From IMG/VR virus record IMGVR_UViG_3300009011_000045, positions 1 through 31,276 of that record: a stretch of 31,276 nt of DNA, one strand, 5' to 3'. Positions 3,717 through 31,231 of the stretch are shown piece by piece. The position numbers were made by a program, and so were the translations under genes. This DNA is from a virus. Below the pieces are notes generated by a model. That model had not been told where the DNA came from. It saw nothing but the letters and a program-made list of their open reading frames with translations, and did no database searches. Numbering within the stretch: position 1 is the first letter of the stretch; every line of letters starts with the position of its first letter.

Positions 3717-4688
3717 CTACCGCGTAACGCCTTTTAATACCCCCGCGTGGGATGCAGCCCATGTACTGTTCGTGGAAAAAGCAGCGGCGTTGGAAGGAGC
3801 TGGACTCGGCCCGTGAACGTGTGAGGCGATCTGAGCGTTCATCTGCTCAAGCAAATTGAGCACATCGCACACTACCTGAAACAAATTCACAGTTTCCGAA
3901 CCGATCCAGTTTTTCGGCGCCTGCAGGTGCTGCCCTTTACCGGACACGCTTCGCCGCAACCCCTCTATCCGCTCCTGCATATCACCCCCCACCGTGGCGT
4001 TGTGTTTCTGCCCCACAACCACGTTCAGATCCCGGCCGGTCGCCTGGTGCAGATCATCCACCGCAACCAAGCTCGCGGATCCACCTGACAGCAGCTTGAG
4101 CGCGCCCAGCGCCTCGATCGTCTTCACGCCACCCACCGACTCGGTCGAGTGGTCGTCAATCGTCTGCGTGTGGCTCTGGAACTGTTCGCGGTTGTCCAGG
4201 GCTTCCACCTCGCGCTCGACCGCCAGATCCCGGATCTTGCCATCGGTCTGGCGAAGCCAGTTGCCGTCGGCATCGACGCGTTGCTGGGCAGCACCGCTGT
4301 GCTGCCATACCTGGTCGCCCTTGGGCACCTTTGGCATGCTCAGCCCGTGGGGCAGGATCGATTGAATGTAGGGCTTGTTCGGCAGGCCGTAGGCGAAACA
4401 CACCACCACGCGCGTTCCTTCCTCGGGAAAGGCATACATGCCCATTTCTTCGCCACCGGTGGGCAGCGGCAACGGAACGCCAGTGAGCGGCGGTATGGCC
4501 GGATCCGGCTCGTCGTCGGCGCCAAGTACCACAATGTCCACCGCGTAGCGCGGGCGGAAGTCGTCGCAGATTCCGGCATCCGCCGGCGCGTCGGCCACGG
4601 CTGTCACCCGGGCGAAGCGCGGCAAGTGATAGCCGCCGGTGAGTTCGGGAAATTGGCGCTCTACAGCGCGGCGGATTGCGTCTTCCAT
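3717..4688 (-). CDS. V: Baseplate central spike protein (gpV-like)
   Basis: A 323-residue product that should form the trimeric spike under the tail tube, which punctures the outer membrane. The N-terminal third (about 20-130) reads as an OB-fold-like domain with the stretch GTRVVVCFAYGLPNKPYIQS, typical of phage baseplate assembly protein V / gp5 N-terminal domains. Residues about 150-270 are rich in short beta-forming repeats (TVGGDMQERIEG, RDLNVVVGQKHNATVGG) typical of a beta-helical needle. HVHGPSP near residue 293 could bind metal, as the HxH motif does in the P2 spike tip, though here about 30 residues follow it. Larger than P2 gpV (211 aa). It is the last gene of the late operon and overlaps the hub gene by 28 nt. 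Confidence 0.8.
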   Translation of the reverse strand: MEDAIRRAVERQFPELTGGYHLPRFARVTAVADAPADAGICDDFRPRYAVDIVVLGADDEPDPAIPPLTGVPLPLPTGGEEMGMYAFPEEGTRVVVCFAYGLPNKPYIQSILPHGLSMPKVPKGDQVWQHSGAAQQRVDADGNWLRQTDGKIRDLAVEREVEALDNREQFQSHTQTIDDHSTESVGGVKTIEALGALKLLSGGSASLVAVDDLHQATGRDLNVVVGQKHNATVGGDMQERIEGLRRSVSGKGQHLQAPKNWIGSETVNLFQVVCDVLNLLEQMNAQIASHVHGPSPAPSNAAAFSTNSTWAASHAGVLKGVTR

Positions 4689-26332: not shown

Positions 26333-26651
26333 CCGGAACATCCGGAACAATTAAAAGTTGCTGATCGCGAACCCACGGTTTTCGGGGCTTTCGGCTCGGA
26401 TCTGAGGTGGAACGGTTACCCGGAACATTGCGGAACAGCTTTTTCGCCAAAAGCGCTGTATCCCTTGCTGCACAAGGCTTTGCGGGTTGTTCCGGCAAAC
26501 GCCTATGGCGGAACACTTCTGGAACAGCGATTGGAAAGTTGTTCCGGTGTGTTCCGGTTTGTTCCGGTCGGTGATGCTGAGGTGATGCTGGTTATCTATC
26601 TGTTTTTTATAGATATTTTTCTTATAGATATTTATGTTCCAGATGTTCCGC
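26333..26651. repeat. ori: Iteron cluster plus AT-rich tract: candidate replication origin
   Basis: The 8-mer TGTTCCGG or its close forms recurs 12 times here. On the minus strand it lies at 26333, 26342, 26420, 26430, 26508 and 26519; on the plus strand at 26488, 26540, 26550, 26560, 26635 and 26644. A further copy is at 26749 inside the primase gene. Three plus-strand copies have an exact 10-bp period. Between 26592 and 26634 lies an almost pure A/T segment with a perfect 12-bp direct repeat TTATAGATATTT (26607 and 26622). Iterons beside an AT-rich unwinding element, next to a primase-helicase gene, fit an origin. Confidence 0.65.
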
Positions 26652-26730: not shown

Positions 26731-29385
26731 TCACGGCTTGCTCCCCTTCCGGAACAGCCAGCAGTTCAGCGAGCGTTTCTCGATTACCGATCGGACTTTG
26801 CGGGTCTCAATGAAGGTGTGTGTGGTGCTCAGCGGCAAAGCTCTGTGCAGTTGGGTTGCGTGAATGACTTCTTGACCGGCCAAACGGCAAGCGTTGTGGA
26901 AGTGTTCGATGTTGATCGCGATCAGATCTTTGTCGGCGCTGTGATTGAGCGTTTCCTGCGTGACTTCGCGATCCCCATCCTTGTCGCTGATGAACATCGT
27001 CCGCTCGTTCAGATAGTGATAGATCTGCCAGAAGCGACCCGCAGTCGGGTTCTCGGTGCTGACACGTTGCTGGCGATCAAGGGCACGGCGTTCGATGTGC
27101 TTGATTAGTTGATCCAGGGTGTCGTCGCTCCACTCGGGAAACAGCGCTTGGGTAGCTTTGGCTGCTGCCATCATCTGCGCATGACACAGCACAATCCGCT
27201 GATGCTGGAGTGCCGCATTGGCTTGTAGGCGTTGTTCGTACTCCGCAAAGGCATCGAAGTAGCGCTGAAGCCATTCCGACTCTTGGCTGATGCAATGACC
27301 TAGGTAGCCCGCCAAGTGCTCTACCGGAAGACTATTCAGGCGTACGGCCAAAACCTTCAATGCTGGGGTGTGGTGTGCCCTGGTTGCGTGGTAGTGACTG
27401 ATACGGGTAAGGATCGGCTCCGAGCCTTCCACACTGGCGTTCTGTGCGATGCACAGCGCGGCGAGGAAGACCAGGCTATCGGTATCGTTGCTCGAAGATT
27501 TCACGCCTACCGTTCGCAACGTAGCGTTGTGGTCGAACAACTGTTTCCAGATTTCCCAGTTGTACTGACTGACCACCGTGCGGCCTTGAGCGTCCACGGA
27601 CTGACTGTCCGACTCGATCAACACCACCGGCAGATTGCTGACTTGGGACAGGGCGCGGGTCAAACCGATCGCACTGGCGCCGGTACTGTTGGGCTTGATG
27701 CCCTCAAAATTGGAACGGCCAAACAGGCGCCACAGAAACCTGAGCAAGCTGGATTTACCGGCACCAGCGTCACCGGTCAGCTCCAGAAAAGGCCATGACT
27801 CTTGCTTGCTGCGGATCTGCTGCACAAACAGCGTTGCTGTCCACCACGATAGCGCCGCTAGACCATTCAAATGGTGCACGGCAAGAAAGTCGGAAAACCA
27901 GCTCGGGTCGAACGGATTACCGCGCACGATCACCAGGCTGTTCAGTGAGGTTTTCAGGCCTGTCTTACCGACCTCCAGATAACCGTGATCGTTGGCCAGG
28001 TATTCGCGGCCTTTGTGGTAGCCGAATTTCTGATAGCAGTAGGTCTTGCTCGCCGCGTCATAACCAACGAACGGCAACGATCGGACGGTAAGTGCGTTGT
28101 CCAGCCACTTACTGCGGAGCATGGCCAACACCTTTTCACCGCCTTCGAAGTTGCCGCCCGGTGTGCGTTCCAAAAGAGATTTGGCAAAGCTGCGAGGGTC
28201 GCCAATGGAGTTCGGCGCTAGCGGCTCCTTGCAGTTCTGGGCAGCGTTAGGGAAGTTGAATTGAAAAAAGAACTGCTGGTCACCGGTGATTGCATCTCGC
28301 TGGATGTACTCAAAATGCGGAACGCAGTTCGCCACCTGCTTCATGTCGCAATGCTTTTCGAACTTCGGCCAGTGGCCGTTCACGTTATCGCCGTCCAGAT
28401 CCTTGTTCAGTTCGTCGGTGTTGATCTTGGCGGAGTAGAGACGATTCTGAAATTCGACCAGGAAGAAGCTACGCGGCCGCTTGAGGTAAAGAAGAAACGC
28501 TTTTTTGGCGGCGCTGACCGCCACGAACAAGCGGCCCTGGTAGCAGGCTTCCCGCATGAAGTCGTCATTCAGTTGGCCATCGCGGTAAACGTCGTCCCAA
28601 TCGCGATCCGCGCCGGCGAGCGCTACCCATGCCTTTTCGTCTTTGGCGTGCAGCTGACTGCGGTATTTCGGGATGACTGAGTGACCGGCTGCGTCATCGT
28701 CCAAGGCAATGACCCAGCGGACTTTCTTACCCTTGTGTTCCTCGACGAGATTCCACGGGAAGTTATTGGCTGATATCGAGGCGACGGCCTTGTAGCCGGC
28801 AAGGAATAAGGCGATCGCGTGGAAAATGCCTTCAACGATATATACGGTATCGCTTGGCTCGATGGTCATTCCTGGCGGCGCCCAGCATCCGCCCTTGTAG
28901 TCCATCCCCTTTTTGATCCCTGCCTTGTCTCCCCCGTTTGCCTTGACCATGGTGACGTCAATGATGCGTTCCCAGTGACCATTGCAAAGCGGAAACCGGA
29001 CAGTGTCAGCCCATTGGCCGTCCTTCATCGGACGGCGGCCTTGTTCGTACCAGCCTTTCATCTTGCTGATATCAAAGCCGCGATTACGCTGTAGATAGGC
29101 GTCGGCCGTCGCGTTTGGATTCAGCTCGGAACGAGGGAACCGCTCACTGAGGTTTTCGAACAGGTGGCTGTAGCGTTCCCGGGTTTTTTCCTCGAACTGG
29201 CATTGGTTCAAGCGGTTGCACTTCAGCTGATATGGCTGCTTTCGAGCGATGTACAGGGTGCGTTCCCCGCACCCTGGACAAACACCTTTCTGAAAGTAGG
29301 TGGTGCCGATGTCTTTGAAGTCCAGGTCATTGTCATGCTCCAGGGCTTCGACCACTTCCAAGCGGTAGATATCTTCGAATTGCAT
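26731..29385 (-). CDS. Primase-helicase (P4 alpha / toprim type)
   Basis: An 884-residue product from ATG 29385. A zinc ribbon (C36, C39, C56, C62) is followed by a toprim-like primase domain with E185 in YIVEGIFHA and D229-D231 in VIALDDDAAG. From about residue 500 comes a superfamily 3-like helicase: Walker A GDAGAGKS (538-545) and Walker B-like VVLIESD (587-593). The C-terminal 200 residues are helical and may bind DNA. It would open the origin, unwind, and prime. P2 itself uses the rolling-circle protein A, which was not seen here. It lies 11 nt after cox and is the main early protein. Confidence 0.9.
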   Translation of the reverse strand: MQFEDIYRLEVVEALEHDNDLDFKDIGTTYFQKGVCPGCGERTLYIARKQPYQLKCNRLNQCQFEEKTRERYSHLFENLSERFPRSELNPNATADAYLQRNRGFDISKMKGWYEQGRRPMKDGQWADTVRFPLCNGHWERIIDVTMVKANGGDKAGIKKGMDYKGGCWAPPGMTIEPSDTVYIVEGIFHAIALFLAGYKAVASISANNFPWNLVEEHKGKKVRWVIALDDDAAGHSVIPKYRSQLHAKDEKAWVALAGADRDWDDVYRDGQLNDDFMREACYQGRLFVAVSAAKKAFLLYLKRPRSFFLVEFQNRLYSAKINTDELNKDLDGDNVNGHWPKFEKHCDMKQVANCVPHFEYIQRDAITGDQQFFFQFNFPNAAQNCKEPLAPNSIGDPRSFAKSLLERTPGGNFEGGEKVLAMLRSKWLDNALTVRSLPFVGYDAASKTYCYQKFGYHKGREYLANDHGYLEVGKTGLKTSLNSLVIVRGNPFDPSWFSDFLAVHHLNGLAALSWWTATLFVQQIRSKQESWPFLELTGDAGAGKSSLLRFLWRLFGRSNFEGIKPNSTGASAIGLTRALSQVSNLPVVLIESDSQSVDAQGRTVVSQYNWEIWKQLFDHNATLRTVGVKSSSNDTDSLVFLAALCIAQNASVEGSEPILTRISHYHATRAHHTPALKVLAVRLNSLPVEHLAGYLGHCISQESEWLQRYFDAFAEYEQRLQANAALQHQRIVLCHAQMMAAAKATQALFPEWSDDTLDQLIKHIERRALDRQQRVSTENPTAGRFWQIYHYLNERTMFISDKDGDREVTQETLNHSADKDLIAINIEHFHNACRLAGQEVIHATQLHRALPLSTTHTFIETRKVRSVIEKRSLNCWLFRKGSKP

Positions 29386-29396
29386 TCCCCAGCCCC

Positions 29397-29618
29397 TCAG
29401 CGCTTGGCCGATGCGGACATGACGCGCTCGGCCTGCTGAGCCGCTTCAATAGCCAAGGCGAGCATGTTGATCAGCACCGCTTCTTTCGAACCTTCGGCCT
29501 TTTCACGAATGAGGATCCGGCCGCGCTCGATGTCGTTTCGGATTGCTCGTTCCGACTGGCCGGAGCGCCGGGCCAGCTCCCTGACAGTGGTGTAGGGCGT
29601 GTCGATAGTGATCTGCAT
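29397..29618 (-). CDS. cox: Cox-like lytic switch regulator / excisionase
   Basis: A 73-residue product from ATG 29618 with GGAG 8 nt upstream; the longer frame upstream re-reads the operator region. PYTTVRELARRSGQSERAIR is a winged-helix/HTH segment and NDIERGRILIREKA is the wing region, as in P2-family Cox proteins. Cox represses the C promoter and directs excision by bending attachment DNA. It is the first gene of the early operon, divergent from the repressor gene. Confidence 0.8.
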   Translation of the reverse strand: MQITIDTPYTTVRELARRSGQSERAIRNDIERGRILIREKAEGSKEAVLINMLALAIEAAQQAERVMSASAKR

Positions 29619-29645
29619 TTGATAAGCTCCGTGGGTATATATGCA

Positions 29646-31153: not shown

Positions 31154-31199
31154 GTGGTGGGCCCACACGGACTTGAACCGTGGACCAAAGGATTATGAG
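31154..31199. repeat. attR: attR core: 46-bp direct repeat within tRNA gene
   Basis: Identical to 78-123. It spans the tRNA gene from the anticodon to one base past CCA. Crossing over within it keeps the tRNA sequence intact at this end. Confidence 0.93.
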
Positions 31200-31231
31200 T
31201 CCTCTGCTCTAACCAACTGAGCTATAGGCCC
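31155..31231 (-). tRNA. tRNA with CAU anticodon (Ile2- or Met-type)
   Basis: A complete 77-nt tRNA with encoded CCA. The acceptor stem GGGCCTA / TGGGCCC has one T-G pair, the D arm is GCTCAGTTGGTTAGAGC, the anticodon loop CTCATAA carries CAT, and the T loop is TTCAAGT. Annotation pipelines would call it Met. However, C4-G69 and C5-G68 pairs, which TilS uses to mark tRNA-Ile2, and the T-arm style (TTGGTCC...GGTTCAAGTCC) resemble tRNA-Ile2, whose C34 is changed to lysidine to read AUA. It is not the initiator: the G-C anticodon stem triplet is absent and it has a paired first acceptor base. Confidence 0.9.

Follow-up and report, generated by a model that had tools for sequence, protein, structure and literature searches.

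A candidate iteron replication origin behind the primase-helicase gene of a P2-like prophage, and a single primase residue that tracks its repeat

Introduction

How does a P2-like phage begin replication when it carries no P2-type initiator? The question is raised by the window studied here, a 31 kb IMG/VR virus record (31,276 nucleotides) that holds a P2-like prophage with integrase, C repressor, Cox, Ogr and P2-type terminase genes, and in which P2 gpA (PF05840) was not found. A tRNA gene situated just beyond the integrase gene (31158–31231, minus strand) is likely the attachment site. A preliminary description of the window had put forward a block of short repeats as a candidate replication origin, and this block, the neighbouring primase-helicase and their relatives were studied computationally.

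Results

The primase-helicase and its C-terminal domain

The repeat block had been placed beside a primase-helicase gene, and the array was indeed located directly 3′ of that gene (Table 1), beginning ~80 bases downstream of the stop codon. The predicted protein has a Cys-rich N terminus, a Toprim domain (residues 181–268), an AAA+ helicase domain (residues ~480–780) and a C-terminal winged-helix-like domain. An AlphaFold model of residues 710–884 (pLDDT 92) showed a helix (843–852) followed by a β hairpin (857–865 and 872–879). The first hairpin strand ends in R865, and the whole has a winged-helix layout. The winged-helix label is based on this order of secondary structure and not on a fold match, since a Foldseek search with the C-terminal model alone gave no significant match in the PDB. 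A model of the helicase together with the C terminus (pLDDT 81) was matched by Foldseek to SCCmec Cch, SaPI PriRep1 and SaPIbov1 Rep, with 5dgk, 7pds and 8tch as the top matches (E 3e-6 to 1e-3), in keeping with an AAA+ helicase fold. A sequence search of the PDB returned nothing useful.

The repeat array and the AT-rich element

Exactly 12 copies of TGTTCCGG at no more than one mismatch were recovered between 26333 and 26651, seven of them exact and five with one mismatch, in both orientations and in agreement with the number first described. When these 319 bp were shuffled 1000 times with the dinucleotide composition kept, the maximum was one exact and three near copies (means 0.02 and 0.33). 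No other 7-mer cluster in the window is as dense, with 10 copies in 450 bp here against five for the runner-up, and the period of 10 bp claimed for the copies at 26540, 26550 and 26560 is exact. A thirteenth exact copy (26749–26756) lies within the final codons of the primase gene (LFRK), is present mainly in the nearest relatives and probably reflects coding.

Table 1. Positions of the repeats and neighbouring features in the window
Feature	Position	Strand	Remarks
Iteron 12, outermost from primase	26333–26340	−	Exact; CCGGAACA on + strand; offset 396 kept in relatives
Iteron 11	26342–26349	−	Exact; offset kept in relatives
Conserved dyad H2, between iteron pairs	26363–26391		AgCC..GGg pattern; conserved non-iteron block in 50-sequence alignment
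Iteron 10	26420–26427	−	Exact; offset kept in relatives
Iteron 9	26430–26437	−	One mismatch, TGTTCCGC; offset kept in relatives
Conserved dyad H1	26454–26484		GCTGnAGCC-N-GGCnTnCAGC; conserved non-iteron block in 50-sequence alignment
Iteron 8	26488–26495	+	Exact; offset kept in relatives
Iteron 7	26508–26515	−	One mismatch; offset kept in relatives
Iteron 6	26519–26526	−	One mismatch; offset kept in relatives
Iterons 5, 4 and 3	26540–26567	+	Three exact copies (starts 26540, 26550, 26560), 10-bp period
AT-rich element, candidate DNA unwinding element	26592–26634		Lowest-GC 43-mer of the whole window, 86% A+T
Iterons 2 and 1, closest to primase	26635–26651	+	TGTTCCAG, TGTTCCGC; 9 bp apart (starts 26635, 26644)
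R865 codon	26791–26793	−	Single primase residue matching the iteron allele
Primase-helicase, 884 aa	26731–29385	−	phrog_1139 full-length profile match, E = 2.6e-221, residues 7–880
Cox-like gene, just upstream of primase	29397–29621	−	phrog_575, E = 2.3e-18

The segment next to the two innermost copies had been called ‘A/T-only-like’; it is the most AT-rich 43 bp of the window, but at 86% A+T that wording was slightly generous. The 12-bp direct repeat reported within it was found, with TTATAGATATTT present at both 26607 and 26622. The block shows the clustered 7–10-bp repeats adjoining an AT-rich stretch that are expected of an iteron origin. No switch in GC skew was seen at the array.

Two further conserved blocks situated between the iteron pairs, H1 and H2, are dyads. 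Their interpretation as structured hairpins was tried and dropped: the symmetry of H1 is kept, with 70% of cells pairing compared with 29–46% when the arms were slid, yet no covariation beyond composition was found, and a protein-binding dyad is for this reason just as likely as a hairpin. H1 and H2 may be binding sites for a second protein or single-stranded start sites. Both dyads are retained in relatives bearing every iteron allele, and one locus (L059) has perfect 12+12 inverted repeats among its copies. A DnaA-box-like TTATCCACA or TATCCACA was noted in or beside the arrays of two relatives (L073 and L141) and at positions 4281–4289 of P4.

Conservation of the array among relatives

The array was compared in a close set of public and IMG/VR genomes with primases of 76–100% identity, each with a complete primase gene and downstream DNA, together with phi3 and phita81A/2 at 58%. 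The preliminary description had asked whether related phages might lack the repeats at this position; they were present in all close relatives, in the same orientations and at nearly identical offsets from the primase stop codon (85+, 94+, the AT-rich gap, 169+, 179+, 189+, 210−, 221−, 241+, 299−, 309−, 387− and 396−). The AT-rich gap follows the second site as a rule, and the spacing of the sites has been retained while the letters between them diverged. Similar spacing with different repeats was observed at ~40% primase identity. Of 145 representative primases surveyed, 71 lacked an above-threshold array in the 500 bp downstream, and in more distant relatives the next gene starts straight after the primase gene.

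The relatives deposited as Pseudomonas phages are phi3, PaBSM-2607-JFK, phita81A/2 and BIBS67. The primases of phi3 and PaBSM-2607-JFK belong to the same family, and in neither genome is any other repeat cluster as dense as the array; neither record has an annotated origin. The same array is present behind the primase gene of phita81A/2. In phi3, the array (KT887559, 7328–7770) falls in an unannotated gap, while that of PaBSM-2607-JFK (OQ849765, 7078–7501) is covered by doubtful open reading frames annotated as hypothetical proteins. The phi3 genome also has a reverse transcriptase gene (KT887559, 1071–2756) adjoining the integrase gene.

Matched change of the repeat and residue 865

The array of PaBSM-2607-JFK has the same geometry and a different repeat, TGGAAGG. 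Such differences were studied in 96 nonredundant primases of 55–100% identity, in which the place, spacing and orientation of the array are kept. Four core alleles were present among these 96 loci, namely GGAACA, GGAAGG, GGAATG and GGTATG. The allele was called from the DNA alone, except that the automatic consensus for L073 and L141 had chosen a second motif, TGAACTA, and these two loci were set to GGAATG by reading the sites. This second motif occurs at some sites of one subclade with tyrosine at residue 865 (L072, L073, L141–L143, L145, L156 and L195), often 9–11 bp from TGGAATG.

Within each class nearly all sites carry the allele of that class: there were 798 copies of GGAACA in the 69 loci with arginine at residue 865, 98 copies of GGAAGG in the 11 loci with histidine (against two of GGAACA), and 101 copies of GGAATG in the 15 loci with tyrosine (against four). 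Among ~900 alignment columns, residue 865 was the sole one to match the allele in all 96 primases (R 69/69, H 11/11, Y 15/15 and W 1/1), and the only one with zero conditional entropy in both directions; the next column, K870, gave values of 0.28 and 0.26. For the second base of the iteron (C or T), no residue was a clear winner and residue 879 was only suggestive.

A tree was then calculated from primase residues 1–700, with the C-terminal domain excluded. Five changes are needed on this tree for residue 865 and five for the repeat, the two agreeing throughout, and the Y/ATG and H/AGG combinations each appear in two separate groups. A tree-based sign test contained just three independent contrasts between R and non-R, which is too few.

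Arrays of more distant relatives

The comparison was extended to primases of ~35–60% identity, with other genera and viral contigs added. Arrays of similar architecture with quite different repeats were found, and the last bases again track residue 865. Arginine was seen with ACA (TGGAACA, CGGGACA, GGGCACA, GTGACA, GGGAACA, GGCAACA and CCTAACA), lysine with ACC (CCTAACC, GGTAACC, CGAACC and GTGACC), histidine with AGG (L239), and asparagine and aspartate with AAT. Near-pairs include ACCTAACA in L258 (R) versus ACCTAACC in L294, L296 and L299 (K), and AGCGAACC in L281 (K) versus AGCGAAT in L280 (N). Exceptions were also present: L321 (D) gives CATTACTT in the orientation of its array, L314 (W) has GGTTAGA compared with GGTATG in L053 (W), and in Smp131 (N) AGGTAAC is commoner than AGGTAAT.

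For a quantitative test, the orientation of 70 arrays was fixed without reference to the protein, and clustering at 60% identity reduced them to 18 groups. In 46 of the 70, the second site is followed by the AT peak. Of 843 columns, residue 865 shared the most mutual information with the trinucleotide class of the repeat (excess 0.75, against 0.36 for the next column; 0/20000 permutations). The order of the columns carries more weight than the rest of the test, because the names of the five classes were given with the data in view and automatic assignment put a few loci, L258 among them, in the wrong class.

Some arrays do not adjoin the primase gene. A genome-wide scan of phage Dobby (NC_048109) located an array at ~350–630 of the circular genome, beyond the integrase gene and ~6 kb from the primase gene; it has the spacing of the L258 array and the repeat AAGGTAATT, and residue 865 is aspartate, which fits the rule. 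Distant arrays that also fit were found in phage 4908 (N, AAAGGTAAT), ESSI2 (R, ACCATCACA) and Mae-JY29 (N, TGGAATAT); Smp131 (N), noted above as an exception, shows no clear fit. In the genomes of ZY1 and 2F_1 an array was not found or was not above shuffles, and the array of PfPro was weak. Two circular records listed as Pseudomonas aeruginosa ‘plasmids’ (NZ_CP077991, 47.5 kb, and CP075758, 36.7 kb) also encode a Dobby-type primase; they may be excised or plasmid-like phage genomes.

Discussion

Proposed function and alternatives

Four things were established by computation: the array is present, its geometry is conserved, it is linked to this primase family, and its repeat changes in step with residue 865. 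The suggestion that this block is a replication origin is strengthened by the conservation of the array, by the co-variation of the repeat with the primase C-terminal domain, by the AT-rich stretch and by the absence of gpA. Our interpretation of these data, to which we give a probability of about 0.8, is that 26333–26651 is an iteron origin served by the adjacent primase-helicase. The C-terminal winged-helix domain would bind the 8-bp repeats directly and the protein would load as a ring, or possibly, because the sites form two opposed groups, as a pair of rings. Melting would occur in the AT-rich stretch, which separates the first pair of sites from the triplet beyond it, and the same polypeptide would then unwind and prime, so that the origin fires.

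Within this interpretation, residue 865 in the wing would read the last two bases of the repeat (R with CA, K with CC, H with GG, Y with TG, and N or D with AT). We lean slightly towards such a one-residue code, in which specificity would have switched repeatedly by joint change of residue 865 and nearly all of the approximately one dozen iterons, and which would keep related phages from sharing replication machinery.

It could be that the array is an origin bound by the C-terminal domain and that residue 865 is a passenger of a recombination block comprising the gene end and the array, with one or more other residues setting specificity. This we regard as unlikely. The primases of L053 and L051 have 11 aligned differences, of which eight are within the last 45 residues, as if exchanged along with the array, and variation in the first half of the repeat goes with other residues. 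Note, however, that residue 865 outranks all columns, including those of the C-terminal domain, and that relatives with R and K differ by the one base predicted. Since the rule also holds for arrays kilobases from the gene, simple hitch-hiking of gene end and array is less favoured.

An accessory role for the array, whether as a site resembling P4 crr or in partition or incompatibility, with the true origin elsewhere, appears improbable. No second iteron cluster was present in the window or in the phi3 and PaBSM-2607-JFK genomes, and the single array itself holds the AT-rich element, although it is true that in P4 the array adjoining the α gene is crr and ori is located ~4.5 kb away.

Another reading, that the repeats are operators bound by Cox, by the C repressor or by some small early protein to control transcription beyond the primase gene, is very improbable. 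Groups of short repeats are common targets of regulators of such a size, and a Cox gene was upstream of the primase gene in 87 of 92 loci examined. Cox, the other conserved small DNA-binding protein encoded next to the primase, was nevertheless rejected as the reader of the iterons: in a column-by-column comparison made for Cox, none of its positions predicted the allele, and the best of them, in the variable tail, reached a conditional entropy of 0.55. A scan for promoters and terminators found nothing within the block, and both the AT-rich stretch and the place behind the primase gene fit an origin. Finally, chance or coding-driven repetition can be dismissed, despite the one copy inside the primase gene, as the shuffles never came near the observed count and the spacing is kept in ~100 loci with different repeat letters, a conservation that already refutes it.

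Significance

Origins of the proposed type are known already; what appears to be new is the one-residue specificity code. A literature search, with most subscription journals outside its coverage, found no paper linking Peduoviridae with iterons. An origin at this site could explain the replication of a large set of P2-like phages that lack gpA. The co-varying repeat and residue look like a natural key-and-lock code, in which at least six natural repeat alleles are matched to one residue and near-pairs differ by one or two bases. With the allele series, the old question of how specificity can change jointly in an initiator and in a dozen dispersed sites becomes open to direct test. The code, if true, also predicts which prophages could cross-replicate and, for each satellite, the phages that it could hijack.

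Comparison with known systems

The window resembles P2 in virion type and in the layout of the early region (Cox, C, integrase and Ogr), but it has no gpA rolling-circle initiator, and an iteron array stands in place of the nick site. In the Vibrio PLE, the RepA initiator and the origin iterons diversify together (PMC8263062); unlike the repeats described here, the PLE iterons are semi-palindromic, ~30 bp long, and their diversity is linked to a counter-defence nuclease.

The analogy with P4 α drawn in the preliminary description stands at the level of mechanism and not at that of family membership. Like P4 α, the window protein has a Toprim primase, a helicase and a C-terminal DNA-binding end, the last being a prediction here. 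Both systems have 8-bp iterons in both orientations, the P4 iteron TGTTCACC sharing its first five bases, TGTTC, with the repeat of the window, and an array right behind the gene, which in P4 is crr. By sequence, however, the window primase is not a member of the P4 α family: the alignment is confined to the Toprim stretch (hhalign probability 62%), and Zn_Ribbon_Prim, D5_N, Pox_D5 and TIGR01613 were not found in the window protein, while the helicase and D5 profiles are present in P4 α. The Cys-rich CPGC..C..C stretch of the window protein did not match the Zn_Ribbon_Prim model. There is also one combined array in the window rather than a separate ori and crr.

It is established for SaPI Rep that the C-terminal domain binds iterons located directly downstream of its gene, and the same arrangement has been demonstrated in vitro for Cch2 (PMC7581432). 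The window primase gave no sequence-level match to the SaPI Rep and Cch families. It differs from them in that its helicase is part of one polypeptide with a Toprim (DnaG-type) primase and occurs in P2-like phages, mainly those of Pseudomonas, and in that its iterons form opposed groups with conserved spacing. What it has in common with SaPI Rep and PriRep and with SCCmec Cch and Cch2 is the fold of an AAA+ self-loading helicase and the position of the iterons directly 3′ of the gene.
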